DNA of 64,000 bases from Hoeflea sp. (GTDB lineage Bacteria > Pseudomonadota > Alphaproteobacteria > Rhizobiales > Rhizobiaceae). Position numbers and translations under genes: made by a program. Below, in pieces: positions 25,189 to 40,190 of the stretch (the first letter of the stretch is position 1; each line of letters starts with the position of its first letter). Under the pieces are notes generated by a model. That model was not told the origin of the DNA. It saw only the letters and a list, made by a program, of their open reading frames with translations, and searched no databases. The stretch covers positions 93,608 through 157,607 of the forward strand of contig NZ_JAUXOD010000011.1 of the NCBI RefSeq assembly GCF_030682515.1, given 5' to 3'.

Positions 25189-26286
25189 TTGGCCGAAATC
25201 CGCATCGAGAACCTGCGCAAGTCCTTCGGCAGCTTTGTCGCCGTGCAGGAATCGAGCTTCACCGTCGAGGATGGCGAATTCCTGGCATTGCTCGGGCCAT
25301 CAGGCTGCGGCAAGACAACGACGCTCAGGATGATTGCCGGACTGGAGCTTCCCACCAGCGGCTCTATCCTTCTCGACAAGGAGGATGTGACGTTCAACCG
25401 GGCGCGTGACCGCGACATCGCCTTCGTGTTCCAGCTTTTTGCGCTTTATCCGCACATGAATGTGCGCAAGAACATCGGCTTTCCGCTGCTGGCCCAGGGC
25501 GTTGCCAAGGCCGAAATCCGGGCGCGCGTCGAGGAAACCGCGCGGCTTCTTCAGATCGACCACATTCTCGACAAGCCGGTGTCGGGACTGGCCGGTGGTG
25601 ACCGGCAGCGCGTGGCGCTCGGCCGTGCGATCGTGCGGCGGCCGAAGTGCTTCCTGATGGACGAGCCGCTGGGGACGCTCGACGCCGAGTTCCGCAATGT
25701 CATGGTGCATGAGCTGCGCGAGCTGCACAACCGGATCAAGGCCACCACGATCTATGTCACCCATGACCAGCTCGAGGCGATGGCGATGGCCGACAAGATC
25801 GCGGTCATGAACCATGGCGTGATCGAGCAGTTCGGGTCGCCGCAACAGATCTATGACCACCCGGCGTCGATCTATGTCGCCGATTTCATCGGCTCACCGC
25901 CGATGAATTTCATCGGCTTCGGCGGCGGCATCGCGAAGGGCGCGACATCGGTGCAGGTTGGCGACGCCGCGGTCGCGGTTCCGGAAGCGCTCGAGGACGT
26001 GAGCGCCGGCGACATGGTGCTGGGCGTGCGTCCCGAGCATGTGCGCTTTTCCGATGCAGCACCCCTGCGGGGCAGCATCTACGGCGTCGAATACCTCGGC
26101 ACGACCCAGATCGTGGTGGTCGAGACCGCCTATGGCTTCTGCAAGGTCCGGGCTCCGGCGGACCAGGTTTTCCGGATCGGCGAGGCCGTCGGCCTGGATC
26201 TTGACGCAACGCGCCTGTCGCTGTTCCGCAAGGACACCGGCAAGGCGATCCGGACTGTCCGTGCCGGGGAGATGGCTCATGGCTGA
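25189..26286 (+). CDS. Sugar ABC transporter ATP-binding protein 1 (TTG start)
   Basis: Walker A GPSGCGKTT; RQRVALGRAIV; MalK-like C-terminal domain. Confidence 0.9.
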   Translation: MAEIRIENLRKSFGSFVAVQESSFTVEDGEFLALLGPSGCGKTTTLRMIAGLELPTSGSILLDKEDVTFNRARDRDIAFVFQLFALYPHMNVRKNIGFPLLAQGVAKAEIRARVEETARLLQIDHILDKPVSGLAGGDRQRVALGRAIVRRPKCFLMDEPLGTLDAEFRNVMVHELRELHNRIKATTIYVTHDQLEAMAMADKIAVMNHGVIEQFGSPQQIYDHPASIYVADFIGSPPMNFIGFGGGIAKGATSVQVGDAAVAVPEALEDVSAGDMVLGVRPEHVRFSDAAPLRGSIYGVEYLGTTQIVVVETAYGFCKVRAPADQVFRIGEAVGLDLDATRLSLFRKDTGKAIRTVRAGEMAHG

Positions 26287-27301
26287 AGTGCGGCTGGAAG
26301 GCCTCGGCAAATCCTTCGGCACCAGCCGCGCCGTGACCGGCATGGACCTGGTGATTGCCGATGGCGAATTCGTGGTCCTGCTGGGGCCCACGGGCGCCGG
26401 CAAGACCACCACCCTCAGGCTTATCGCCGGGCTTGAGCGTCCGGATGCGGGATCCATCCGGATCGGTGAGGAGGACGTGACCGGGCTGTCGCCGGCGGAG
26501 CGCGATGTTGCCTTCGTGTTTCAACAATATTCGCTCTATCCGCATCTGAGCGTTTTCGACAATCTCGCGTTTCCGCTGAAGTCGCCGGCCCGGCGCTGGT
26601 CGGCCGGCGAGATCGACGCACGGGTGCGCGACATCGCCAGAATGGTGCGCATCGACCACAAGCTTGACAGCAAGTCGACGAAGCTGTCGGGCGGCGAGAT
26701 GCAGCGCGTGGCGATCGGCAGGGCCCTGGTGCGCGAGCCGTCGATCTTCCTGATGGATGAACCGCTGTCCTCGCTCGACGCCAAGCTGAGAGCCGACCTC
26801 AGGCTCGAGCTCAAACGCATCCAGAGCGAGATCGGCGCGACATTGCTTTATGTGACGCATGACCAGATCGAGGCCATGACCATGGCGGACAGGATCGGTA
26901 TTCTCGCGGAAGGCCATCTGACCCAAATCGGAAGTCCGCGCGAGATCTACACCGCGCCCGCCAATCTGCACGTCGCCGCGCGCCTGGGTCATCCGCATAT
27001 CAACCTGATCAAGCCCGGGCTGCTGCCCTGTCAATCGATGCCCGATGGGGTCAGGACCATCGGTGCGCGGACCGAGCACATTTTGGTCGAAGCCGCGGCT
27101 TCTGTGGCGCAGGGCAATGGTCGGGTCGACTGGATCGAGCATCTCGGCGACCAGAACCATCTGCATATTCTGGTGGACGGGCAGAAAATCACATTGCTTG
27201 CCGATCCCTATTCCGGTTTCAAGGCGGGGGATCCGGTTTCGGTTTCCCTCAAGCAGCCGCTTTTCTTCGGAGCGGACGACAGGAGGATCACCGATGTCTG
27301 A
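26279..27301 (+). CDS. Sugar ABC transporter ATP-binding protein 2
   Basis: MAEVRLEGLGKSFG start at 26279; Walker [26 protein letters not shown]. Confidence 0.9.
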   Translation: MAEVRLEGLGKSFGTSRAVTGMDLVIADGEFVVLLGPTGAGKTTTLRLIAGLERPDAGSIRIGEEDVTGLSPAERDVAFVFQQYSLYPHLSVFDNLAFPLKSPARRWSAGEIDARVRDIARMVRIDHKLDSKSTKLSGGEMQRVAIGRALVREPSIFLMDEPLSSLDAKLRADLRLELKRIQSEIGATLLYVTHDQIEAMTMADRIGILAEGHLTQIGSPREIYTAPANLHVAARLGHPHINLIKPGLLPCQSMPDGVRTIGARTEHILVEAAASVAQGNGRVDWIEHLGDQNHLHILVDGQKITLLADPYSGFKAGDPVSVSLKQPLFFGADDRRITDV

Positions 27302-27923
27302 GAGCAAGACGGGCATGACGTCCGATGATTTCCGCAGCCTTGTCGTCGCAATGGCCGCCGCAATCGAGGCCAATGCCGACCGGCTTACCGAGCTCGACAG
27401 CGCGATCGGCGACGGGGATCACGGCGCCAATATGAAGCGCGGCTTCCAGGCGGTTCTGGGCGAGCTCGACCAGCTGGCAACCAAGCCGGTGCCGGAAGCG
27501 CTCAAGGCCGCGGGCATGAAACTGGTGATGACGGTCGGCGGCGCCTCCGGCCCGCTGGTGGGCACATTGCTGATGACGCTCGGCAAGGAGCTTCCGGCGG
27601 ATTTCGATCGCCAGGCGTTCGTCATGGCTTACGAAAAGGCTGTGGATGCCGTGGCCGCGCGCGGGAAATCCCACGCGGGACAGAAGACCATGCTGGATGT
27701 GCTCTATCCGATCCTGGATGCCATGCGCGAGGGCGCCGATCCGGACGAGGTCGCAGCCAGGGCCCGGGCCGCGGCCGATGCAACGGTTCCGATGCTCGCC
27801 ACGCGCGGCCGGGCTTCCTTTCTCGGCGAACGGTCGATCGGGCACATGGATCCCGGCGCGGCATCGGTTGCGCTGCTGGCGGGCGTCGTCGCCCGGACGC
27901 TGCAAACACATCAAGGAGCTTGA
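27294..27923 (+). CDS. dhaL: Dihydroxyacetone kinase subunit DhaL (ADP-binding)
   Basis: LDSAIGDGDHGANMKRGF, GGASGPLVGTLLMTLGKEL, GRASFLGERSIGHMDPGAAS. Confidence 0.92.
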   Translation: MSESKTGMTSDDFRSLVVAMAAAIEANADRLTELDSAIGDGDHGANMKRGFQAVLGELDQLATKPVPEALKAAGMKLVMTVGGASGPLVGTLLMTLGKELPADFDRQAFVMAYEKAVDAVAARGKSHAGQKTMLDVLYPILDAMREGADPDEVAARARAAADATVPMLATRGRASFLGERSIGHMDPGAASVALLAGVVARTLQTHQGA

Positions 27924-27926
27924 GGC

Positions 27927-28313
27927 ATGAATGTCGGGATTGTGATTGTGTCGCACTCGCCCCTGGTGGCGGAAGGTGTCGCCGACATGGTGCGGCAAAT
28001 GGTGGGCGACGAGGTTGGGCTCGCCTGGTGCGGCGGAGATCCGGCCGGCGGGCTCGGAACCAGCGTCGAGGCAATCACCGCTGCTATCGACAAGGCCTGG
28101 TCCGATGCGGGCGTGGCTGTGCTGGTCGATCTGGGCGGGGCCGAGACCAATACGGAAATGGCGATCGAGTTCATCGGCGAGCCTCGCGCGTCGCTGATCG
28201 CCATCTGCAATGCGCCGATCGTCGAGGGCGCGATCATGGCGGCAACGGAAGCGTCGGGCGGCGCCCCGCTTGCCACCGTGGTGGCGACGGCCGAAGAACT
28301 GTCGCCCCTGTGA
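27927..28313 (+). CDS. dhaM: Dihydroxyacetone kinase phosphodonor subunit DhaM (EIIA domain only)
   Basis: IVIVSHSPLVAEG active-site His; 128 aa. Confidence 0.88.
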   Translation: MNVGIVIVSHSPLVAEGVADMVRQMVGDEVGLAWCGGDPAGGLGTSVEAITAAIDKAWSDAGVAVLVDLGGAETNTEMAIEFIGEPRASLIAICNAPIVEGAIMAATEASGGAPLATVVATAEELSPL

Positions 28314-28335
28314 GCGGGTTGGAAGGACATCACAC

Positions 28336-28638
28336 ATGACGGCCAAGGCGGTTTCCGAAGTGATCATCACCAATGAGGTGGGGCTGCATGCCCGGCCTTC
28401 GGTGAAATTCACCAAGCTAGCCAAGACATTTCCCTGCACGGTGGAGTTTGCCACAAGTGAGGACGGTCCGTGGATCGACGCCAAGAGCATCGTCAAGGTG
28501 ATGGGCGCCAAGGCGCCCAAGGGAACGAGGCTTTTGTTGCGGGCCCAGGGCGAGCAGTCGACCACGGCGGTCGCAGCCCTGATCGCGCTGGTTGAACGCG
28601 GATTTGATGAAGGCGGCGGGCATGGCGAGCCCCAGTAG
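28336..28638 (+). CDS. HPr family phosphocarrier protein
   Basis: NEVGLHARPSVKFTKLA active-site His15 motif. Confidence 0.92.
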   Translation: MTAKAVSEVIITNEVGLHARPSVKFTKLAKTFPCTVEFATSEDGPWIDAKSIVKVMGAKAPKGTRLLLRAQGEQSTTAVAALIALVERGFDEGGGHGEPQ

Positions 28639-30226
28639 AATTTCCGGCCAGTCGGCCAGCGCGGGCTTTGCCCATGGCCCGGTTCACCTGGCGCGCAGGC
28701 AGGGGCGCGCCTACATCGCCAAGGCAACGCCGGAGCACGAGCTTCACGCGCTCAATGAGGCGGTCGAGACGGCGGCTTCCTCGATTGCGGCCGCGATGGG
28801 CCAGCTCGCCGGCGATGCGGCCGATATCCTGGAATTTCAACTGGCGATGCTCGAGGACGGCTCGTTTACCGCCGCCGCGGCGGAGTTGATTGCCTCCGGC
28901 GCCACTGCCCCTGCCGCGTGGAAAACCGTGCTGGAGGCCGAGATCGCCAGTTACCGGGCGTCCGGCGACGCCTATTTCAATGCCCGGTCGGCGGATCTGG
29001 CCGACATCTGCGACACCGTGCTGCAGGCCCTGTCCGGCGAGAGCGCCGAATCCATTCCGCCGGGCGTCATCCATGTCGACGAGGATGTCGCGCCCAGCCG
29101 GTTCCTGTCGCATGACTGGAGCAAGGGCGGCGGCCTTGCGTTGCGCAGCGGCAGCGTCACCAGCCATGTGGCGATGCTGGCCCGCGCCCGCGGCGTGCCG
29201 ATGATCGTGGGCATCGGCGACGCTGAAATTGATGAGGCGGCGAACGCCTTGCTGGATGCGCAATCGGGCGAGTTGCTGCTGTCTCCGGATCCGGCGCAGA
29301 TCGATGATTTCAACACCCGCCGCACCGCCAGCCGGGCGCACCAGCGCGACGCCGATGCCCTGGCTTCCCACCCCGCCGTCACCCGAAACGGCGAGAGCGT
29401 CCAGGTGCTCGTCAATATCGCCGACCCCAGCGATGTCGAGCGGATTTCGATCGACCATGTCGACGGCGTCGGATTGATGCGGACCGAATTCCTGTTCGGC
29501 GGCGCGCGCGGGCTTCCCGACGAGGAGACCCAGCTCGCCGCCTATCGCAAGGTGCTCGACTGGGCAGACGGCAAGCCGGTGACCATTCGCACCATCGACG
29601 CGGGCGGCGACAAGCCGGTCGAGGGCTATACAATTGCCGAGGACAATTCCTTTCTCGGCGTCCGCGGTATCCGCCTGTCTCTGGCCAAGCCCGAGATCTT
29701 CAGGGTTCAAATCCGGGCGCTGCTCAGGGCGGCCCCGCACGGGGCGCTGAAGGTGATGCTGCCGATGGTGTCCGTCCCGGGCGAGATTGACGCGGTGCGG
29801 GCGATGTTTGCCGCGGAGGCCGCCGACCTCGCCCAGGCGGGTATCATCCACCGGATGCCCGAGCTCGGGATCATGGTCGAGGTGCCATCGGTGGCGATCA
29901 CGCCGGCACGGTTCGCCGCGGCCAGCTTCTTCTCGATCGGTTCGAACGACCTCACGCAATATGTGCTGGCGGCGTCGCGCGACAATCCGAGGCTCGGCGC
30001 GCTCGGCTCGGCCGCCGACCCGGCCGTCCTCAGCCTGATCGGCACTGTGGCGAGCTATGGTCTGGCGAGCGGGATCGAAACCAGCCTGTGCGGCGATGCC
30101 GCAAGCGACCCGGACATGATAGGGTTGCTGCTCGATGCAGGCTTGCGCCGGCTTTCGGTGGCGCCGGCCCGGGTGTCGGTCATCAAGGCGGCGGTCCGGC
30201 TCTGGGCGCCGGGGGAGATAGAATAA
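28622..30226 (+). CDS. Phosphoenolpyruvate-protein phosphotransferase (PTS Enzyme I)
   Basis: GSVTSHVAMLARARGVPMIVG phosphohistidine motif; GSNDLTQYVLAASRDN PEP-binding motif. Confidence 0.92.
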   Translation: MASPSRISGQSASAGFAHGPVHLARRQGRAYIAKATPEHELHALNEAVETAASSIAAAMGQLAGDAADILEFQLAMLEDGSFTAAAAELIASGATAPAAWKTVLEAEIASYRASGDAYFNARSADLADICDTVLQALSGESAESIPPGVIHVDEDVAPSRFLSHDWSKGGGLALRSGSVTSHVAMLARARGVPMIVGIGDAEIDEAANALLDAQSGELLLSPDPAQIDDFNTRRTASRAHQRDADALASHPAVTRNGESVQVLVNIADPSDVERISIDHVDGVGLMRTEFLFGGARGLPDEETQLAAYRKVLDWADGKPVTIRTIDAGGDKPVEGYTIAEDNSFLGVRGIRLSLAKPEIFRVQIRALLRAAPHGALKVMLPMVSVPGEIDAVRAMFAAEAADLAQAGIIHRMPELGIMVEVPSVAITPARFAAASFFSIGSNDLTQYVLAASRDNPRLGALGSAADPAVLSLIGTVASYGLASGIETSLCGDAASDPDMIGLLLDAGLRRLSVAPARVSVIKAAVRLWAPGEIE

Positions 30227-30649
30227 ATGAAGCCGCAAACCGGCGAGGAGGCGATCCGCGCCTACAAGCAGAAGCTTGCGGCGATCGTCGACAGGCGGCC
30301 CTCTGGGACACGCCAGCGGCTGGCCGACGCGCTCGGAAAGCACCGCAGCTTCGTGACCCAGATCGCCAGTCCCAGCTATCTCACGCCTTTGCCCGCGCGG
30401 CACCTGCCGGTGATCTTCTCGGTCTGCCATTTCAGCCAGGCGGAGCAGAAGGATTTCCTGGCGCTCTATCACGCGGCCCATCCGGGACGCGTGGCCGGGC
30501 CTGCCGCGGGCAAGCGAACCCGGCATCTGACCGTAACCGCGCCGGATCTGGGCAGCGAGGAGCGCAACCGGCAATTTGACCATGCGGTGGCCGATTTTAT
30601 TCACCGTATGGCACTGGTTATCGCAAGCGATCCGGATGAGGAGGCCTGA
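30227..30649 (+). CDS. 140-aa predicted HTH-like protein within the dha operon
   Basis: Starts directly at the EI stop; GTRQRLADALGKHRSFVTQIA resembles an XRE-type HTH. Confidence 0.65.
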   Translation: MKPQTGEEAIRAYKQKLAAIVDRRPSGTRQRLADALGKHRSFVTQIASPSYLTPLPARHLPVIFSVCHFSQAEQKDFLALYHAAHPGRVAGPAAGKRTRHLTVTAPDLGSEERNRQFDHAVADFIHRMALVIASDPDEEA

Positions 30650-30670
30650 CGGCCGCAAAGGGAGGACAGC

Positions 30671-31672
30671 ATGAAGAAACTGATGAATGGCACTGAAACG
30701 ATCCTGGCTGAAAGCCTTGCCGGGTTTGCCGCCGCGCATGGCGATATCGTGGTGCTGGATCCATCCGGCAAATTTGTCCGCCGCAGGGATCTCAAGCCAG
30801 GAAAGGTCGCGCTGATCTCCGGCGGCGGGTCCGGCCATGAACCGCTGCATGCGGGGTTCGTCGGCATGGGCATGCTCGACGCCGCCTGTCCGGGGCAGGT
30901 GTTCACCTCGCCCACGCCCGACCAGATGCTGGAAGCCGCCCAGGCCGTGGATGGCGGCGCGGGCGTGTTGTTCATCGTCAAGAACTACGAAGGCGACGTG
31001 ATGAATTTCGACATGGCCGCCGAGATGCTCAAGGACATGGCGGGCATCGAGGTCCTGCAGCTCATCACCAATGACGACATCGCGGTGGAGGATTCGCTGT
31101 TCACCACCGGACGCCGCGGCGTTGCGGGAACACTGGTGGTTGAGAGGATTGTCGGCGCTGCAGCGGAACAGGGAATGGGCCTTGCAGACCTCCTGGCGCT
31201 GGGCGAGCGGGTCAACCGCCAGTCCAAGTCCTTTGGCGTGGCGCTGACCAGTTGCACGGTGCCCGCCGCGGGCAAGCCGACCTTCGATCTCGGGCCCGGC
31301 GACATGGAGTTTGGCGTGGGCATTCACGGCGAACCCGGCCGCAGGCGGGCGCCCCTTGCCAGCGCCGACGAGATCGCCACCGAAATCTGCGAGGGGATCT
31401 GCAAGGAGTTCGGCGACGTCAAAGGCCGGAACGGGCTGCTGTTCGTCAACGGATTTGGCGGCACGCCGCTGATGGAGCTCTATCTCATGCACAACAGCGC
31501 CCGGCGGATTTTCGACGCTCACGGACTGAGGATCGCCCGGTCGCTGACCGGCTCCTATGTCACCTCGCTCGACATGGCGGGCTGCTCGATCACGCTGACG
31601 CTCATGGACGACGACATGCTGTCCCATTGGGATGCGCCGCTGCACACTGCTGCCCTGCGGTGGGGTGTCTAG
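30671..31672 (+). CDS. dhaK: Dihydroxyacetone kinase subunit DhaK
   Basis: SGGGSGHEPLHAGFVG; GVGIHGEPG catalytic His region. Confidence 0.93.
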   Translation: MKKLMNGTETILAESLAGFAAAHGDIVVLDPSGKFVRRRDLKPGKVALISGGGSGHEPLHAGFVGMGMLDAACPGQVFTSPTPDQMLEAAQAVDGGAGVLFIVKNYEGDVMNFDMAAEMLKDMAGIEVLQLITNDDIAVEDSLFTTGRRGVAGTLVVERIVGAAAEQGMGLADLLALGERVNRQSKSFGVALTSCTVPAAGKPTFDLGPGDMEFGVGIHGEPGRRRAPLASADEIATEICEGICKEFGDVKGRNGLLFVNGFGGTPLMELYLMHNSARRIFDAHGLRIARSLTGSYVTSLDMAGCSITLTLMDDDMLSHWDAPLHTAALRWGV

Positions 31673-31923: not shown

Positions 31924-32628
31924 ATGCTGAGTCTGGCCGGGGACAAACTTCATCTATCGCGTTCGACGCTGCTGCGACTCGCATCGGCCATCGGCAGCGC
32001 CGCCGCTTTCGGCATGCTGGCGGCGCCCGTCACGCGATCGGCCTACTGGCCTTCGGCCTTCGCGCTGGCTTTCATCTACGGATTCTTCTTTGTTGGCGGC
32101 ACCGGTTTCCGGATCCTCATCGCGGTGGCGTTGCAGGATATGTCGCGCAAGGCCTCGGCGTCGTGGTCGGGCGCCACAACCGCCTCGGCGCTGGCCGCCC
32201 TGATCGCCGCGCTGCTGCTTTTCTTCCAGGGTAGGGAGGACGCGGCGCTCCTGCTCGCGGCCTATGCGGTGGCGATCAACGCCGCCTACATTCCGGTCAA
32301 GCTCGCCTGCGTTGAAGCGGGCTGCTGTCACGCCCATCGGCGCGACCGGCTCGTGATCCGCAACCATGACCTGCGCCATGTCGAGATTGTTGCGAGCGCC
32401 TTCGTGCTGGCGGCGGCGTTGGCGGCGATCTGGGCAGGGGCGGCCGGCCTGGCCGCCTGCCTGGGCGTGGGAGGGCATCTGGCAATCCGGCTTCTGTCGC
32501 GCTGGTCGCGCGACCGGCTGCCGGCAGCGGGTGCCCAGTCAGGCGCCCAGGATGAAATCAAGGGTCAGGAGCTTGTGCCTCTGGCGCTTGTGTTTGCCGC
32601 GGCCATCTGGCTGGCGGCGTGGTCATGA
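31924..32628 (+). CDS. Multi-TM protein, possibly a divergent Lgt-like (prolipoprotein diacylglyceryl transferase fold) protein
   Basis: 6-7 hydrophobic segments; KLACVEAGCCHAHRRDR resembles the GCF(L)AGCC(Y/H)G segment of Lgt-like proteins; AAGGA before ATG. Confidence 0.55.
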   Translation: MLSLAGDKLHLSRSTLLRLASAIGSAAAFGMLAAPVTRSAYWPSAFALAFIYGFFFVGGTGFRILIAVALQDMSRKASASWSGATTASALAALIAALLLFFQGREDAALLLAAYAVAINAAYIPVKLACVEAGCCHAHRRDRLVIRNHDLRHVEIVASAFVLAAALAAIWAGAAGLAACLGVGGHLAIRLLSRWSRDRLPAAGAQSGAQDEIKGQELVPLALVFAAAIWLAAWS

Positions 32629-32654
32629 AATCGTGCATCGCAAAGGAGTCAAGC

Positions 32655-32849
32655 ATGCAACCCCAGTCGGAAAAAGAAACTGTCGATCGTTCGCGCCTCA
32701 AACTGCTGGGGGTCCTGGCTGCAGCGGGTGCATCTGGCGCCTGTGTGCAACAGGCTGAATATTACCCGCCGTCGGGAAGAGGAAGAGAGGTTCAACCGCG
32801 CACCACAGGGGGCGAAGGCGAAGGCGGCGGCGGCGGAGGTTCGCATTGA
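32655..32849 (+). CDS. 64-aa small protein: signal-like hydrophobic segment ending in Cys30, Gly-rich C-terminus GGEGEGGGGGGSH
   Basis: AAGGAG RBS before ATG at 32655; stop overlaps the TTG start of the downstream CDS. Confidence 0.65.
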   Translation: MQPQSEKETVDRSRLKLLGVLAAAGASGACVQQAEYYPPSGRGREVQPRTTGGEGEGGGGGGSH

Positions 32850-34177
32850 GCGTCATGTCCATGGATCGCAGGTCATTCCTGGCAGCGGCGGGCGTCCTGG
32901 CGGCGGCGCCGCTGGCCGGGTGCGCGACACAGGACACGTCCGAAGGGGCGCTGGCGGCGGAGACGGTTCTGCCGGTGAAGCCGCTCAGCGCGTCCTCGGT
33001 CTATGTGCCGGGATACATGCCGGACAAGGCGCAGGTCGGCGGGGTTCCGGTGAAGGAGGACCGCTATTTTGCCCGTAACATCTCCGATCCGGAGCGGCCT
33101 TTCCGGCTCTTGACCCGGATCGGAATGAATGGCGAGATGCGGCAGACGCTGCTGCCGGCCTATGCCCATGACGTTGAGATCTCGCCGGATCGATCCGTGG
33201 GCGTCATGTGCGGGTTCGAGGCGACCGACCAGGTCGCCTTCGATCCCGACACGCTGGATCTCGTGGCGGTGGCGCCCTCTTTCTCAAAGGGCTGGCGCGG
33301 CGGCGGCCATGCCGCCTATCTCTCTGATGGCAAGAGCGTGCTCCTGTCGGAACGCGCGCCCCGGCGCAGCCTGAGCGGAGGCAAGATCGAGGATCATTAC
33401 GGTCGCATCACCATCCGCGACACCGATACGCTGAAGATCCGCGGCAGCTATTCCACCCACGGCATCGATCCGCACGACATCCGCCTGATCGACAATGACC
33501 GGTATCTGGTCATCGCCAATTACGGCTCGCTGCCGCGCGAGGGAGCGCGGGGGCTGAGCATTCCGCGCCGGGTGCCCGAAGCCTGCGTCACGATCATCGA
33601 TACGCAGAGCGGCAAGCTTGAAGACAAGCGCGTCACCGACCGCCGGGAGACCGAGGTCCGGCATCTGGCCGCGGGCGCGCTCGACCGGATCTTCGCGATC
33701 CAGGCGCGGCTTGGAGGCGATGCCGATCTGGCCCGAGACCTGCGTAACGAGCGCGTGGCCGATGATGAGGACATAACCTCGGAGCCGGGCATCGCCTATC
33801 TGTCCGCCGCAACGCTGAAACTGGCAAAGGGCAAGCCGCCACGGCGGATGGGAAGCCGGAGCGACACCGCCAAGATGCGCCACGGCCTGTCGATCCGCTA
33901 CGACGCCCGGAACGACCAAGCGATCGCGACCTATCCGAGTTCGCACCAGCTGATGGTGTTCGACGGCGCGTCAGGCGAGGTGCTGCATGCTTTCGACACG
34001 CGGAACATGGGCATGCGGTTTCCCTGCGGGGTCACGCTTCTGCCCGACGGTGTTCATTATGCGGTGACGGGGTACTGGGAAAACCTGTTCGTGTTCGAAC
34101 GCGGCAGCCACCGTCTCAATCGCGAGGCGTGCCTTTACCCGACGTTCTTTGGTCACAGCCACATCACTGCCGCCTGA
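32846..34177 (+). CDS. DUF1513-like protein with Tat motif and lipobox
   Basis: MDRRSFLAAAGVLAAAPLAGC; DUF1513-like segments GGHAAYLSDGKSVLLSE and THGIDPHDIRLIDNDRYLVIANYG. Confidence 0.75.
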   Translation: MSVMSMDRRSFLAAAGVLAAAPLAGCATQDTSEGALAAETVLPVKPLSASSVYVPGYMPDKAQVGGVPVKEDRYFARNISDPERPFRLLTRIGMNGEMRQTLLPAYAHDVEISPDRSVGVMCGFEATDQVAFDPDTLDLVAVAPSFSKGWRGGGHAAYLSDGKSVLLSERAPRRSLSGGKIEDHYGRITIRDTDTLKIRGSYSTHGIDPHDIRLIDNDRYLVIANYGSLPREGARGLSIPRRVPEACVTIIDTQSGKLEDKRVTDRRETEVRHLAAGALDRIFAIQARLGGDADLARDLRNERVADDEDITSEPGIAYLSAATLKLAKGKPPRRMGSRSDTAKMRHGLSIRYDARNDQAIATYPSSHQLMVFDGASGEVLHAFDTRNMGMRFPCGVTLLPDGVHYAVTGYWENLFVFERGSHRLNREACLYPTFFGHSHITAA

Positions 34178-34331: not shown

Positions 34332-35369
34332 ATGACCAGAATGACCACTACAGGCCGCCTCAATCTCCTCAGCCGTCGCCAGATTCTTGCCGGAACGGCC
34401 GCCGGTGCGGCAGCGCTTTCGATGCCTGGTTTCCTCACCAGAGCCCGTGCCGAGGGGCCGCTCAAGGTGGCCGCCATCTACACCGTGCCGGTGGAGCAGC
34501 AGTGGGTGAGCCGCATCCACAAGGCGGCCAATGCGGCCGTGGCTCGCGGCGATATCGAGTATGTGTTTTCCGAGAACACCTCCAACAATGACTATGAGCG
34601 CGTCATGCGCGAATATTCCGAGGCCGGTCACGATCTGATCGTCGGCGAGGTCTTCGGCGTCGAGGACGCCGCCCGCCAGGTGGCCGCCGACTATCCGGAA
34701 ACCGCCTATCTGATGGGCTCGAGCTTCCTGCCCAAGGATGATGCGCCGAATTTCGCCGTCTTCGACAACTACATCCAGGACGCATCCTACCTGTCCGGCA
34801 TCATCGCCGGCGCCATGACGACGTCGAAGAACATCGGCATGGTCGGCGGGTTTCCGATTCCCGAAGTCAACCGGCTGATGCATGCCTTCATGGCCGGCGT
34901 CAAGGAAACCGCGCCGGACGCCAAGTTCCAGGTGGCTTTCATCGGCTCCTGGTTCGATCCGCCGAAGGCCAAGGAAACCGCGTTTGCCCAGATCGATGGC
35001 GGCGCCGACATCCTCTATGCGGAGCGCTTCGGGGTCTCCGATGCGGCCAAGGAGAAAGGCATCCTGGCGATCGGCAATGTGATCGACACCCAGGCCGATT
35101 ATCCCGAGACCGTGGTCGCTTCGGCGCTGTGGCATTTCGAGCCGACGCTCGACCGCGCCATCGAGATGGTCAAGGCAGGCACGTTCAAGGCGGACAATTA
35201 TGGCGTCTATTCCTTCATGAAGGAAGGCGGCTGCTCGCTGGCGCCGCTTGGAACCTTCGAGGGCAAGATCCCCGAAGCTGCGATGGCGCTGGTCATGGAA
35301 CGTGAAGCGGCGATCAAGGACGGCTCCTTCGTGGTCGAGATCAACGACGAAGAACCCAAGTCCAACTGA
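34332..35369 (+). CDS. BMP-family ABC transporter substrate-binding protein
   Basis: Tat-like N-terminus SRRQILAGTAAGAAALS; BMP/Med-type PBP. Confidence 0.88.
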   Translation: MTRMTTTGRLNLLSRRQILAGTAAGAAALSMPGFLTRARAEGPLKVAAIYTVPVEQQWVSRIHKAANAAVARGDIEYVFSENTSNNDYERVMREYSEAGHDLIVGEVFGVEDAARQVAADYPETAYLMGSSFLPKDDAPNFAVFDNYIQDASYLSGIIAGAMTTSKNIGMVGGFPIPEVNRLMHAFMAGVKETAPDAKFQVAFIGSWFDPPKAKETAFAQIDGGADILYAERFGVSDAAKEKGILAIGNVIDTQADYPETVVASALWHFEPTLDRAIEMVKAGTFKADNYGVYSFMKEGGCSLAPLGTFEGKIPEAAMALVMEREAAIKDGSFVVEINDEEPKSN

Positions 35370-36919
35370 TGGACCATGCTGAGCGCCCGGAGGCGGAGAC
35401 CGTTCTCCGCCTCGCGGGCATCACCAAGAGATTTGGCCCGCTTGTCGCCAATGACGCGATCTCGCTGTCGCTCGCGCGCGGCGAAGTCGTGGCCCTGCTT
35501 GGCGAGAACGGTGCGGGCAAGACCACGCTGATGAACATCCTGTTCGGCCATTACACCGCCGATGAGGGGCAGATCGAGGTCTTTGGCAAGCCGCTTCCGC
35601 CAGGAGATCCCAACGCCGCGCTGGCGGCGGGCATCGGCATGGTGCACCAGCATTTTACCCTCGCTGACCAGATGACCGTGCTTGAAAACATCGTGCTCGG
35701 CACAAGGCCGCTCTGGTCGTTCAACCTGGGCAAGGCCGAGGCCCGACAGAAGATCCGCAGGCTCGCGACCGACTACGGGCTTGATGTCGATCCTGACCGG
35801 ATGATCACGGAGCTGTCGGTGGGCGAACGGCAACGGGTCGAAATCCTCAAGGCGCTCTACCGCGAGGCTCGGATCCTCATCCTCGACGAACCCACGGCGG
35901 TACTGACGCCGATGGAGACGGAAGCGCTGTTCGCCACGCTCAAGAAGCTGGTGGCTGCGGGGCTGTCGGTAATCTTCATCTCGCACAAACTCGGTGAAGT
36001 GCAGTCGGTCTCCGACCGCGTCGTGGTGTTGCGCGGCGGCAGGCTCGCCGGTGAGCGCAGAACGTCGGAGGCGACGCGGCGGGAACTGGCGGAACTGATG
36101 GTGGGCGGGCAATTGCCCGTCAACGAGATCGGGCCGTCGACGCCGGGCGTCACGCTGTTCGCGCTCAAGGACGTGTCCACGCGCAGCATGGGCGGTGCTG
36201 CGCTCAGGCAGGTTTCGATCGAACTGCGTGGCGGCGAGATCACCGGCCTCGCCGGGATATCGGGCAATGGCCAGGCGGCGCTGGCGGCGCTGATCGCGGG
36301 CACGCTCGAGGCCCGTGAGGGTGATATCATCGTCCATGGCGAGACCGCGCGGCACTGGTCGCCGCGCACGGCGCTCGACAAGGGGCTGGGGCGCATCCCC
36401 GAAGACCGGCACGCCACCGGCATGATCGGCGACATGAGCGTGGCCGAGAACGTGATTTCGGAAGCCTATCGCAGCCCGCGGTTCTCCCGTTTCGGATTCC
36501 TCGACTGGGCCGCCGCGGCGTCGTTTGCCGGCGACATCATCAAGGCCTACGACGTCAAATGCCCGTCGCCCGACGCCCGCGTGCGGCTGCTGTCGGGCGG
36601 CAACATGCAGAAGCTGATCCTGGGACGGGCGCTCGATGGCGATCCGGACATCATTCTTGCCAGCCAGCCGACCCGCGGTCTCGATGTCGGCGCGGTGGCC
36701 TATGTGCATGCGCGGCTGATCGAGGCGCGCGACCGGGGCGCCGCCGTGCTGATCATCTCCGAGGACCTCGACGAGATCCAGACGCTGTCTGACCGGATCG
36801 TGGTGATCCATCGCGGACACCTGTCCAGCCCCTCGGCCCGGGGCGAACTCAGCGTCATGGAACTGGGCGAGCTGATGGCCGGTCACGGCGTCGCCGAAGG
36901 GGCCGATCATGCGGCTTGA
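35369..36919 (+). CDS. Nucleoside-type ABC transporter ATP-binding protein (double ABC domain)
   Basis: GENGAGKTTLMNILFGHY; LSGGNMQKLILGRAL in the second domain. Confidence 0.92.
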   Translation: MDHAERPEAETVLRLAGITKRFGPLVANDAISLSLARGEVVALLGENGAGKTTLMNILFGHYTADEGQIEVFGKPLPPGDPNAALAAGIGMVHQHFTLADQMTVLENIVLGTRPLWSFNLGKAEARQKIRRLATDYGLDVDPDRMITELSVGERQRVEILKALYREARILILDEPTAVLTPMETEALFATLKKLVAAGLSVIFISHKLGEVQSVSDRVVVLRGGRLAGERRTSEATRRELAELMVGGQLPVNEIGPSTPGVTLFALKDVSTRSMGGAALRQVSIELRGGEITGLAGISGNGQAALAALIAGTLEAREGDIIVHGETARHWSPRTALDKGLGRIPEDRHATGMIGDMSVAENVISEAYRSPRFSRFGFLDWAAAASFAGDIIKAYDVKCPSPDARVRLLSGGNMQKLILGRALDGDPDIILASQPTRGLDVGAVAYVHARLIEARDRGAAVLIISEDLDEIQTLSDRIVVIHRGHLSSPSARGELSVMELGELMAGHGVAEGADHAA

Positions 36920-37958
36920 AGCCAGAGCCACGACATCGGGCGCCGCCACCATCCTGTGGCCGGCGGGCGCGATCCTGGCGACGATCGTATTCTCCTCGGT
37001 TCTGGTGATGATCGCCGGGGCCTCACCGCTCACGGTGTTCTGGCTGGTGTTCAAGGGGGCGGCCGGGTCGCAATTCGCGTTGCTGGAGACGCTGACCCGC
37101 GCCACGCCGCTGATCTTCACCGGGCTCGCGGTGGCTGTCGCCTTCCGGGCGCGGCTGTGGAACATCGGCGCCGAGGCGCAGCTCTATCTTGGGGCGGTGA
37201 TGACGGTTGTACTGGGCACCGGCGCGGTCACGTTGCCCTCGGCGGGGCTGATCCCGCTGATCATGATGGCCGCCATGCTGACCGGTGCGCTGACGCTGCT
37301 CGGACCCGCCATCCTCAAGACAAGGTTTGGCGTCGACGAGGTGGTGACCACGCTACTGCTCAATTTCATCGTCCTGCTGTTTGTCTCGATGTTGCTCGAA
37401 GGGCCGCTCAAGGACCCGACGGGACTGGGCTGGCCGCAGTCCCAACGGGTGATCGCGGACGCGCAACTGCCGCGCCTGATCAAGGGCAAGCGCCTGCATT
37501 ACGGCTTCGTGCTCGCCGTCGTCTCGGCCATCGTGGTCTGGGTGATCATGAAGAAGACGGTGCTGGGCTACGAGATGCGTGCGGTCGGCCACAATGCGGA
37601 AGCCGCGCGCTTCGCGGGCATTCCGGTCAACCTTGTGATCGTCAAGACGGCGCTGCTGTCAGGCGGGCTCGCGGCGCTTGCGGGCTTCTCCGAGGTGGCC
37701 GGGCTCAAGGGCAACCTGACGCTCGATCTGTCGCCGGGCTACGGCTACACCGGCATTGTGGTCGCCATGCTCGCCATGCTCAATCCGCTCGGCGTGATCG
37801 CCGCGGCGATCTTCGTGGCCGGGATCTTCGTCGGCGCCGACGCCATGAGCCGCAGCGCCAATGTGCCGAGCTACATTGCCCAGGTGATGGTGGCGACCTC
37901 GCTTCTGACCATGGTCGCGGCAATCATGCTGATGCGCTACCGCGTGCGCTGGAGATGA
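36909..37958 (+). CDS. ABC transporter permease
   Basis: BPD_transp_2-type multi-TM; RARLWNIGAEAQLYLGAV. Confidence 0.9.
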   Translation: MRLEARATTSGAATILWPAGAILATIVFSSVLVMIAGASPLTVFWLVFKGAAGSQFALLETLTRATPLIFTGLAVAVAFRARLWNIGAEAQLYLGAVMTVVLGTGAVTLPSAGLIPLIMMAAMLTGALTLLGPAILKTRFGVDEVVTTLLLNFIVLLFVSMLLEGPLKDPTGLGWPQSQRVIADAQLPRLIKGKRLHYGFVLAVVSAIVVWVIMKKTVLGYEMRAVGHNAEAARFAGIPVNLVIVKTALLSGGLAALAGFSEVAGLKGNLTLDLSPGYGYTGIVVAMLAMLNPLGVIAAAIFVAGIFVGADAMSRSANVPSYIAQVMVATSLLTMVAAIMLMRYRVRWR

Positions 37959-37959
37959 C

Positions 37960-38904
37960 ATGAGCGAGGCCATCGAGATCCTGTTCACCGCCAGCTTCTG
38001 GGTCGCGGCCATCCGCATCGCCTCGCCGCTGATCTTCGCCACCATGGGCGAACTCATCTGCGAGCGCGCCGGCGTGCTCAACCTCGGCATCGAGGGCATC
38101 ATGGTGGCCGGCGCCTTCACCGGCTGGTTCACGGTCTATATGGGCGGGGACCTGTGGACCGGCGTGCTGGTGGCGGCGATGACCGGGGCGATGTTCGGGC
38201 TGCTGCACGGCTTCCTCACCGTGCCGCTGGGCCTGTCGCAGCATGTCACCGGCATCGGCATCACCCTGCTGGCCTCGAGCCTCACCTATTTCACCTATCG
38301 CATCCTGCTGCCCGAGGTGACGTCGCCGCCGAAGATCGAGCCGTTCCAGCCCTTTGCGGTTCCGGTGCTGTCGGATATCCCGGTGCTTGGACCCGCGCTG
38401 TTCAACCAGACGCCGCTCACCTATCTCGCTTATTTCACCGTGGCGGCCGTCGCCTTCGTGCTCTACCGCACTCCGGTGGGCGTGGCGGTGCGGGCGGTGG
38501 GGGAAAACCCGTCAGCGGTGGAGGCGCAGGGCATTTCGGTGACGGCGGTCAGGATCGGCGCGGTGATGGCAGGCTCGGCACTGATGGCGATCGGCGGCGC
38601 GTTCCTGACCATGTCGGCGTTCAATTCGTTCTTCTTCGAGATGATCAACGGGCGCGGCTGGATCGCCATCGCGCTGGTGGTGTTCGGGTCCTGGCGGCCC
38701 GGAAAGGCGCTGATCGGGGCGATCCTGTTTGCGGCCTTCGACGCCTACCAGGTCCGCCTCCAGCAGATCACCGGCGGCGTCATCCCCTACCAGATCTTCC
38801 TGATGATGCCGTTCGTGCTGTCGATCGTGGCCCTTGTCGTCGTCGCCCGGCGCGCGACCTATCCCAAGGCGCTGATGATCCCTTACCAGAAAGGCGAGAG
38901 ATGA
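37960..38904 (+). CDS. ABC transporter permease
   Basis: ERAGVLNLGIEGIMVAGAF motif. Confidence 0.9.
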   Translation: MSEAIEILFTASFWVAAIRIASPLIFATMGELICERAGVLNLGIEGIMVAGAFTGWFTVYMGGDLWTGVLVAAMTGAMFGLLHGFLTVPLGLSQHVTGIGITLLASSLTYFTYRILLPEVTSPPKIEPFQPFAVPVLSDIPVLGPALFNQTPLTYLAYFTVAAVAFVLYRTPVGVAVRAVGENPSAVEAQGISVTAVRIGAVMAGSALMAIGGAFLTMSAFNSFFFEMINGRGWIAIALVVFGSWRPGKALIGAILFAAFDAYQVRLQQITGGVIPYQIFLMMPFVLSIVALVVVARRATYPKALMIPYQKGER

Positions 38905-40190
38905 GTTTTGACACAATTCTCAAAGGCGGCGTCCTGCCCGACGGGACGACCGCCGACATCGGCATCCTCGACGGACGGATCGCGGCGATAGCGCCCTCAA
39001 TCGAAGCGGAAGCCGGAGAGACGATCGACATAACCGGCCATCTTGTTTCGCCGCCCTTCGTCGACCCGCATTTCCACATGGATGCGACCTTGTCCTATGG
39101 CCTGCCGCGGATCAATGCGTCGGGCACGCTCTTGGAAGGCATCGGATTGTGGGGCGAACTCAAGCCGCTTTTGACCCACGAGGCGGTGAAGGAGCGCGCG
39201 CTCGCCTATTGCGACTGGGCTGCCTCGATGGGCTTGCTTGCGATCCGGACCCATGTGGATGTCTGCGACGATCGCTTGCTGGCCGTCCAGGCGCTGATCG
39301 AGGTCCGGCAGGAGATTTCCCACTACATCGACCTGCAGCTTGTGGCGTTTCCCCAAGACGGGCTCTACCGCTCGCCCACCGCGCGCGCAAACACGATCCG
39401 GGCGCTCGATCTCGGCGTCGATGTGGTCGGCGGCATCCCGCATTTCGAGCGCACCATGGCCGACGGCCGCGCCTCCGTGACCGAGCTATGCGAGATCGCG
39501 GCAAGCCGCGGGCTGATGGTCGACATGCATTGCGACGAGACCGATGACCCGCTGTCGCGGCATATCGAGCAGCTCGCCTACGAGACGCAGCGGCTCGGGT
39601 TGCAGGGCCGGGTGGCGGGATCGCATCTCACCTCGATGCATTCGATGGACAATTACTACGTCTCCAAGCTGCTGCCACTGATGGCGGAAGCGCAGGTGGC
39701 GGCTATCCCCAATCCGCTCATCAACATCACCCTGCAGGGCCGTCACGACACCTATCCCAAGCGCCGCGGCATGACCCGGGTTCCGGAAATGCTCAGCCAC
39801 GGCATCCGGGTCGGCTTCGGCCAGGATTGCGTGCTGGATCCCTGGTACTCGCTGGGGACCGCTGACATGCTGGATGTGGCCTTCATGGGGCTGCATGTGG
39901 CGCAGATGACCAGTCCCGCCGCTATGCGCCGCTGCTACGATATGGTCACCAAGGAGAGCGCGGCGATCATGGGGCTTGAGCACTATGGGCTGGAGGTCGG
40001 CAAGCGGGCCGATCTGGTGGTTCTGGATGCCGGCGATCCGGTCGAGGCGATCCGGCTGCGCGCCACACGCCTGCTGGTGATGGCCAGGGGCAAGGTGATT
40101 GCCCGCCGCGCGCGCTCGCCGATGCAGCTCTCCATCGACGGGCGTGAAGGCGCGGTGGACAGGCGTTTCCGGACGCCCGCTCCAGTCTGA
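38901..40190 (+). CDS. Amidohydrolase family protein, cytosine deaminase-like
   Basis: VDPHFHMDATLSYG; RTHVDVCD; DMHCDETDD; GFGQDCVLDPWYSLG. Confidence 0.85.
   Translation: MSFDTILKGGVLPDGTTADIGILDGRIAAIAPSIEAEAGETIDITGHLVSPPFVDPHFHMDATLSYGLPRINASGTLLEGIGLWGELKPLLTHEAVKERALAYCDWAASMGLLAIRTHVDVCDDRLLAVQALIEVRQEISHYIDLQLVAFPQDGLYRSPTARANTIRALDLGVDVVGGIPHFERTMADGRASVTELCEIAASRGLMVDMHCDETDDPLSRHIEQLAYETQRLGLQGRVAGSHLTSMHSMDNYYVSKLLPLMAEAQVAAIPNPLINITLQGRHDTYPKRRGMTRVPEMLSHGIRVGFGQDCVLDPWYSLGTADMLDVAFMGLHVAQMTSPAAMRRCYDMVTKESAAIMGLEHYGLEVGKRADLVVLDAGDPVEAIRLRATRLLVMARGKVIARRARSPMQLSIDGREGAVDRRFRTPAPV

Follow-up and report, generated by a model that had tools for sequence, protein, structure and literature searches.

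Organization of the locus

The DNA analysed here, a stretch of 64,000 nucleotides referred to as the window, carries a trio of genes on its forward strand. ORF 1 (31924..32628) encodes a putative Lgt-like integral membrane protein of 234 aa with seven predicted helices, whose translation contains KLACVEAGCCHAHRRDR and RHVEIVASAF, and whose C-x4-CC block (ACVEAGCC, residues 128-135; 32305..32328) aligns to GRxGCFxAGCC in the GCC-type paralogues of Lgt. Preceded by a Shine-Dalgarno-like AAAGGAGT, read directly at approximately 32642..32649, ORF 2 (32655..32849) encodes a predicted secreted peptide of 64 aa with a V-D-RSRLKLL export motif, Cys30 in the context ASGA-C and the C-terminus TTGGEGEGGGGGGSH, which closes in GSH. 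Direct reading also shows that the Gly codons of this tail (32829..32839) include a GGAGG that doubles as the Shine-Dalgarno of ORF 3 (32846..34177), whose TTG start overlaps the ORF 2 stop (TTGA) and which has further in-frame ATGs at 32855 and 32861. ORF 3 encodes a DUF1513-related Tat lipoprotein (DRRSFL, LAGC), probably a beta-propeller. The first-pass annotation of this DNA had described the three ORFs with their motifs, Cys30 and the stop/start overlap, and all of these were found as described.

In comparisons with same-genus relatives, both ORF 1 and ORF 3 gave dN/dS of ~0.13-0.22. The value for the operon peptide was ~0.2-0.4, and all of its gaps among these relatives are frame-keeping. 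All three ORFs are under purifying selection, and dN/dS values well below 1 in three genes, together with the frame-keeping gaps, support the coding status of the trio. On the other hand, the Gly tail might be kept only as the Shine-Dalgarno (GGCGGAGG codons) of the overlapping propeller gene and the peptide itself be functionless, as the sequence 5' of the third gene that most resembles a Shine-Dalgarno is GGAGG at 32835-32839. This we consider extremely improbable, because RSRL and the Cys are conserved too, and a role of the tail as mere Shine-Dalgarno was rejected because orphan peptides without a coupled propeller gene retain a GGEG..GGGGSH tail.

Upstream of the trio, an ABC ATPase gene is followed in one run by DhaL, DhaM-type EIIA, HPr, EI-type and DhaK genes (26039-31672, forward strand; Pfam was applied to DhaK only), a gene set that is also found in genomes G004 and G006. 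This dihydroxyacetone kinase/PTS cluster includes a conserved 140-aa protein (30227-30649, forward strand) with no Pfam match that reads like a small helix-turn-helix regulator. A tie between the trio and the dihydroxyacetone kinase operon was rejected, since the genes lying upstream are not the same in G003 and G006. Directly 3' of the trio lies an operon for a Bmp-type ABC transporter, with a cytosine-deaminase-like gene as its last member (34332-40190, forward strand); this order is kept in G003, G004 and G006.

ORF 3 belongs to the DUF1513-related proteins

ORF 3 matches DUF1513 (PF07433) with an E-value of 9.1e-17 and 61.5 bits against a gathering cut-off of 27, the 443 aa protein covering positions 3-184 of the 304 of the profile, and its LAGC agrees with the canonical lipobox pattern [LVI][ASTVI][GAS]C. 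This bears out the earlier description of the third gene product as DUF1513-like with a Tat motif (DRRSF) and a lipobox. In all seven propellers of trio loci the residue at -3 is Leu, and the spacing between motif and Cys is 18 or 19. The AlphaFold model of ORF 3 is of low confidence (pLDDT 45), and its top listed Foldseek matches are mostly propellers, the best being 1jju_B (8.5e-8); the alignments used for modelling ORFs 1 and 3 contained sequences from the window, L003 and L004 only. ORF 3 differs from DUF1513 in that it is longer, is a Tat lipoprotein and lies outside an imelysin operon, whereas the other DUF1513-like copy of the host (L048:7929-9005) adjoins an imelysin-like gene, in a cluster with a bacterioferritin-like gene and imelysin-like genes (L048:4672-9005; genes named by eye). 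A literature search on DUF1513 found no paper.

Distribution of the trio and of its invariant core

The order ORF1-ORF2-ORF3 is found in five other genomes, namely the same-genus G004, G006 and G016, G777 from another family of the order, and L004, a Methylobacteriaceae MAG, with two tandem peptides at the trio locus in each of the last two. The loci of L003 (Hoeflea sp. BRH_c9, a member of the genus to which the window belongs) and G006 are the same by sequence. In G003, ORFs 1 and 3 are intact and the operon peptide has decayed to fewer than 40 residues. Recurrence of the trio in other genomes, which the first-pass annotation had set as a test, was thus confirmed, but its invariant core turned out to be the pair of Lgt-like and peptide genes. 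These two adjoin each other with no propeller nearby in G289, G248 and G844, in divergent orientation in G289, whereas G055 has a propeller homologue that lacks a lipobox and is accompanied by neither an Lgt-like gene nor a peptide. The propeller was detected in 6 of 101 relatives, five of which also have the Lgt-like protein, and among 18 genomes of the genus both are present in 5 and neither in 13. Because the contexts beyond the trio differ between families, the pair behaves as a unit in its own right. The module is rare, and the family was found in 3 of the 398 genomes of an order sample and in 2 of the 349 of a phylum sample. A search of a plasmid collection gave no match to ORF 1 or ORF 3, and PADLOC gave no match, hence nothing that points to a known defence system.

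A peptide family with an invariant motif and a non-canonical lipobox

All 15 intact peptides share RSRLxLL and a single Cys, which follows the first Arg of RSRL at a distance of exactly 18 residues. Position -3 with respect to the Cys is occupied by S, T, A or G, and by L, V or I in none of the 15, so that the peptides depart from the pattern [LVI][ASTVI][GAS]C (the window peptide reads ASGA-C), in agreement with the non-canonical lipobox reported in the first-pass annotation. The propellers of the same operons, with their canonical Leu at -3, provide an internal control for this departure. Nor do the peptides carry the twin arginine (RR) of Tat signals, the motif being RSR in 15/15. Within the mature part only the Cys and the tail are conserved; the middle has drifted and contains gaps. 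Most peptides have a Gly-rich tail with SH at its end. Where the genome has a propeller beside the pair, every member closes in (S/A)H, whereas the three pairs lacking a propeller nearby have GGH, AYD or PYD. This association between tail ending and propeller presence, which involves few lineages, is suggestive.

Small residues at -3 and -1 would also be compatible with signal peptidase I in 14 of the 15 peptides. Cleavage of this AxA-like site by signal peptidase I could release a free N-terminal Cys, with the membrane protein performing some other Cys modification or redox step through its C-x4-CC block, in which C129, C134 and C135 are invariant. We regard such a route as unlikely, as the G844 peptide has Asp at -1, GCC is present in Lgt paralogues too, and conservation of just the Cys and the tail in the mature part is a better fit to lipid anchoring.

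In the genomes sampled, intact peptides occur only with the Lgt-like protein

Across 385 genomes of the class (E <= 1e-6), the peptide profile and the Lgt-like profile match the same three genomes, G000 (the host of the window), G248 and G289. Likewise, the 5 of 18 genomes of the genus that have the Lgt-like gene are the ones with intact peptides, and an improved peptide profile applied to 23 chosen genomes found intact peptides exactly where the Lgt-like gene occurs. Four full-length peptides are unlinked to an Lgt-like gene (one each in G000 and G003, two in G004), and such orphans were found only in Lgt-like-positive genomes. That of the window's own genome (L045:8886-9095, equivalent to G000:C73:34888-35094, minus strand) has 69 aa and reads VDRSRLTLLLGL...GSH; together with the G003 orphan and one of those in G004, it occupies a common locus beside arsC/arsH-like genes. 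A second copy next to the G004 orphan has lost RSRL and the Cys position. The sole peptide seen in an Lgt-like-negative genome, that of the same-genus G013 (L115:8181-8276), is shortened, has lost the Gly tail and has a spacing of 19 rather than 18. Other genomes gave weak peptide matches at E ~1e-3, which were regarded as noise; the one that was inspected, in G289:C12, proved to be an unrelated Tat protein.

Because operon copies are co-inherited with the enzyme gene, independent weight comes from the orphans and the class sample only, and these numbers are small. Even so, we consider it very likely that the Lgt-like protein and the peptide are functionally linked. The state of G003, with a decayed operon copy, an intact orphan and intact ORFs 1 and 3, fits action in trans, and strict co-occurrence that extends to unlinked peptide copies makes action of the membrane protein on the peptide the best reading.

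A different outcome of such action would be a released RiPP-like product, with the peptide as its precursor and the Lgt-like protein as a lipidating maturase. The short ORF, the conserved N-terminal recognition motif and variable middle, the tandem copies and the several paralogous precursors per genome are in line with this idea. However, no protease, transporter or other maturation gene accompanies the pair, whose contexts vary between families, and conservation lies in the Gly tail, not in the drifting, gapped middle, which makes a released product quite improbable.

Probable homology of the membrane protein to Lgt, weak but specific

Ten homologues of ORF 1 align end to end, with K126, C129, G133-C134-C135, D149-L150-R151, E154-I155, H185, R189, S192, R196 and E216 invariant in all of them. 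The order of their blocks (K..ACxxxGCC, DLRxxEI, GHLxxRxxSRxxR, QE) parallels that of Lgt (GRxGCF..GCC, HPxQLYE, YGxxRFxxExxR, GQ). Profile comparison (hhalign) with GCC-type Lgt paralogues from other genomes of the phylum gave an E-value of 0.0011 and a score of 30.5 over 104 columns, in register at GCC, with a probability of only 20% (just 5-20% across comparisons). Reversed, column-shuffled and permease controls reached about half of that score or less, and the score was 25.8 when the paralogue set was reduced to six. In single-sequence comparisons, six GCC-type paralogues ranked 1-5 and 7 of ~300 sequences including 268 decoys, with matches carried mostly by a stretch of 16-20 residues around GCC. 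A wider search of the class for such paralogues returned mostly canonical Lgts and left the comparison no deeper.

The kinship with Lgt proposed in the first-pass annotation was partly supported, by this profile match and by the order of motifs and helices, but not by the family profile itself. None of 8 family members matched PF01790 (LGT) even at E 10, ORF 1 was not matched in a PF01790 search of the whole host genome, and neither Pfam nor NCBIfam gave any match for it; canonical Lgts ranked no better than decoys in the single-sequence comparisons. A sequence search of the PDB with the Lgt-like profile found no relative. The AlphaFold model of ORF 1 (three sequences, low-confidence pLDDT of 58) shows seven main helices in the expected order, and E. 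coli Lgt has seven transmembrane segments; Foldseek with this model gave no match at E <1, which at such model quality is uninformative. We conclude that the resemblance of ORF 1 to Lgt, as judged from these alignments, is weak but specific, and that ORF 1 probably descends from Lgt. Retention of transferase activity is less certain. The Arg of GRxGN/C and the HPxQLYE block of Lgt are replaced in ORF 1 by an invariant Lys and DLRxxEI, changes with which the activity may differ or be lost.

These altered catalytic-block residues would also fit an explanation in which the peptide is an ordinary small lipoprotein of the housekeeping Lgt-LspA pathway, and the Lgt-like protein a degenerate paralogue without transferase activity that serves it as chaperone or sorting factor. 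The host does have a canonical Lgt (G000:C83; PF01790 E 9.2e-75), and Ycf48 is a precedent of a protein experimentally lipidated despite an unusual residue, Cys, at -3 (PMC8038367). Nevertheless, the invariant RSRL, the 18-residue spacing and the absence of an aliphatic -3 residue across several families exceed the needs of a generic lipoprotein signal, and the searched genomes have intact peptides only where the Lgt-like protein is present, so that we consider processing by the housekeeping pathway rather unlikely.

Encoded at L050:1015-1827 (minus strand) is the first half of an Lgt fused to a thioredoxin-like domain (PF01790 3.1e-12), beside a DsbD/ScsB-like gene.

Proposed mechanism and comparison with known systems

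We propose that export of the peptide relies on a signal sequence carrying the invariant RSRLxLL at a fixed distance from the peptide's sole Cys. A dedicated, strongly diverged Lgt-like enzyme of seven helices in the inner membrane would recognise this unit of motif plus Cys, which lacks the lipobox Leu(-3), and modify the Cys, the most likely reaction being transfer of a diacylglyceryl or acyl group from phospholipid. The mature peptide (35-54 residues), now membrane-anchored, would expose its disordered Gly-rich tail. Tails that end in (S/A)H would probably dock to the DUF1513-related propeller lipoprotein encoded alongside, or cooperate with it, in the periplasm. The order of the genes, their conservation and co-occurrence, the fixed spacing of the motif and the non-canonical lipobox are observations, whereas the Lgt chemistry, the cleavage, the docking to a partner and the purpose of the module are what we infer. 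We see about even chances for a two-part export and modification module in which the Lgt-like enzyme acts on the Cys in peptides of a private family, and from the sequence comparisons, lipid transfer by this protein to the peptide is as easily right as wrong. The dedicated lipid-modification module suggested in the first-pass annotation is partly supported: its conservation holds up, as does action of the membrane protein on the peptide as the best reading of their strict co-occurrence, while kinship with Lgt is only partly supported. With somewhat greater doubt, we suggest a private second lipidation route in Alphaproteobacteria, in which an Lgt-derived enzyme reads RSRLxLL with a Cys 18 residues on and lipidates a dedicated family of Gly-tailed micropeptides, acting in trans on paralogues not linked to its gene and partly together with a propeller lipoprotein. 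Lgt is usually regarded as a single housekeeping enzyme for all of a cell's lipoproteins. If our suggestion is true, a diverged Lgt-like protein with its own substrates and motif would mean that lipidation can be specialised, and would offer a small natural model in which to study how Lgt recognises its substrates, here micropeptides that gene callers could easily miss.

No description of this Lgt-like/peptide module was found in the literature, and a search for Lgt-like proteins together with lipoproteins found nothing beyond the work on myxosortase (PMC11980579). There, an Lgt or Lgt-like acyltransferase has been considered for the invariant Cys of an unusual sorting tag, MYXO-CTERM, which is C-terminal, includes a transmembrane helix and requires an intramembrane protease (PMC11980579). 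In contrast, the Cys of our peptides is N-terminal and no protease is linked to the pair. Compared with Lgt (PF01790), ORF 1 shares the seven predicted helices, the block order and a partner with a Cys after its signal peptide, but has a shorter inter-block loop and is tied to a single family of peptides whose lipobox is non-canonical. As in the Lgt/LspA lipoprotein pathway, the export signal of the peptides ends in an invariant Cys, the differences being S/T/A/G at -3 and RSRLxLL at a fixed distance. With Tat signals they share a basic motif, a weakly hydrophobic stretch and a length near that of the DRRSFL signal of ORF 3, but every member carries RSR and not RR. Elsewhere, a small Tat protein (L054:8031-8210, minus strand; ...VDRSRRGFLRAGL...) lies beside formate-dehydrogenase-like genes, with a signal that resembles the RSRL motif but contains a true RR.
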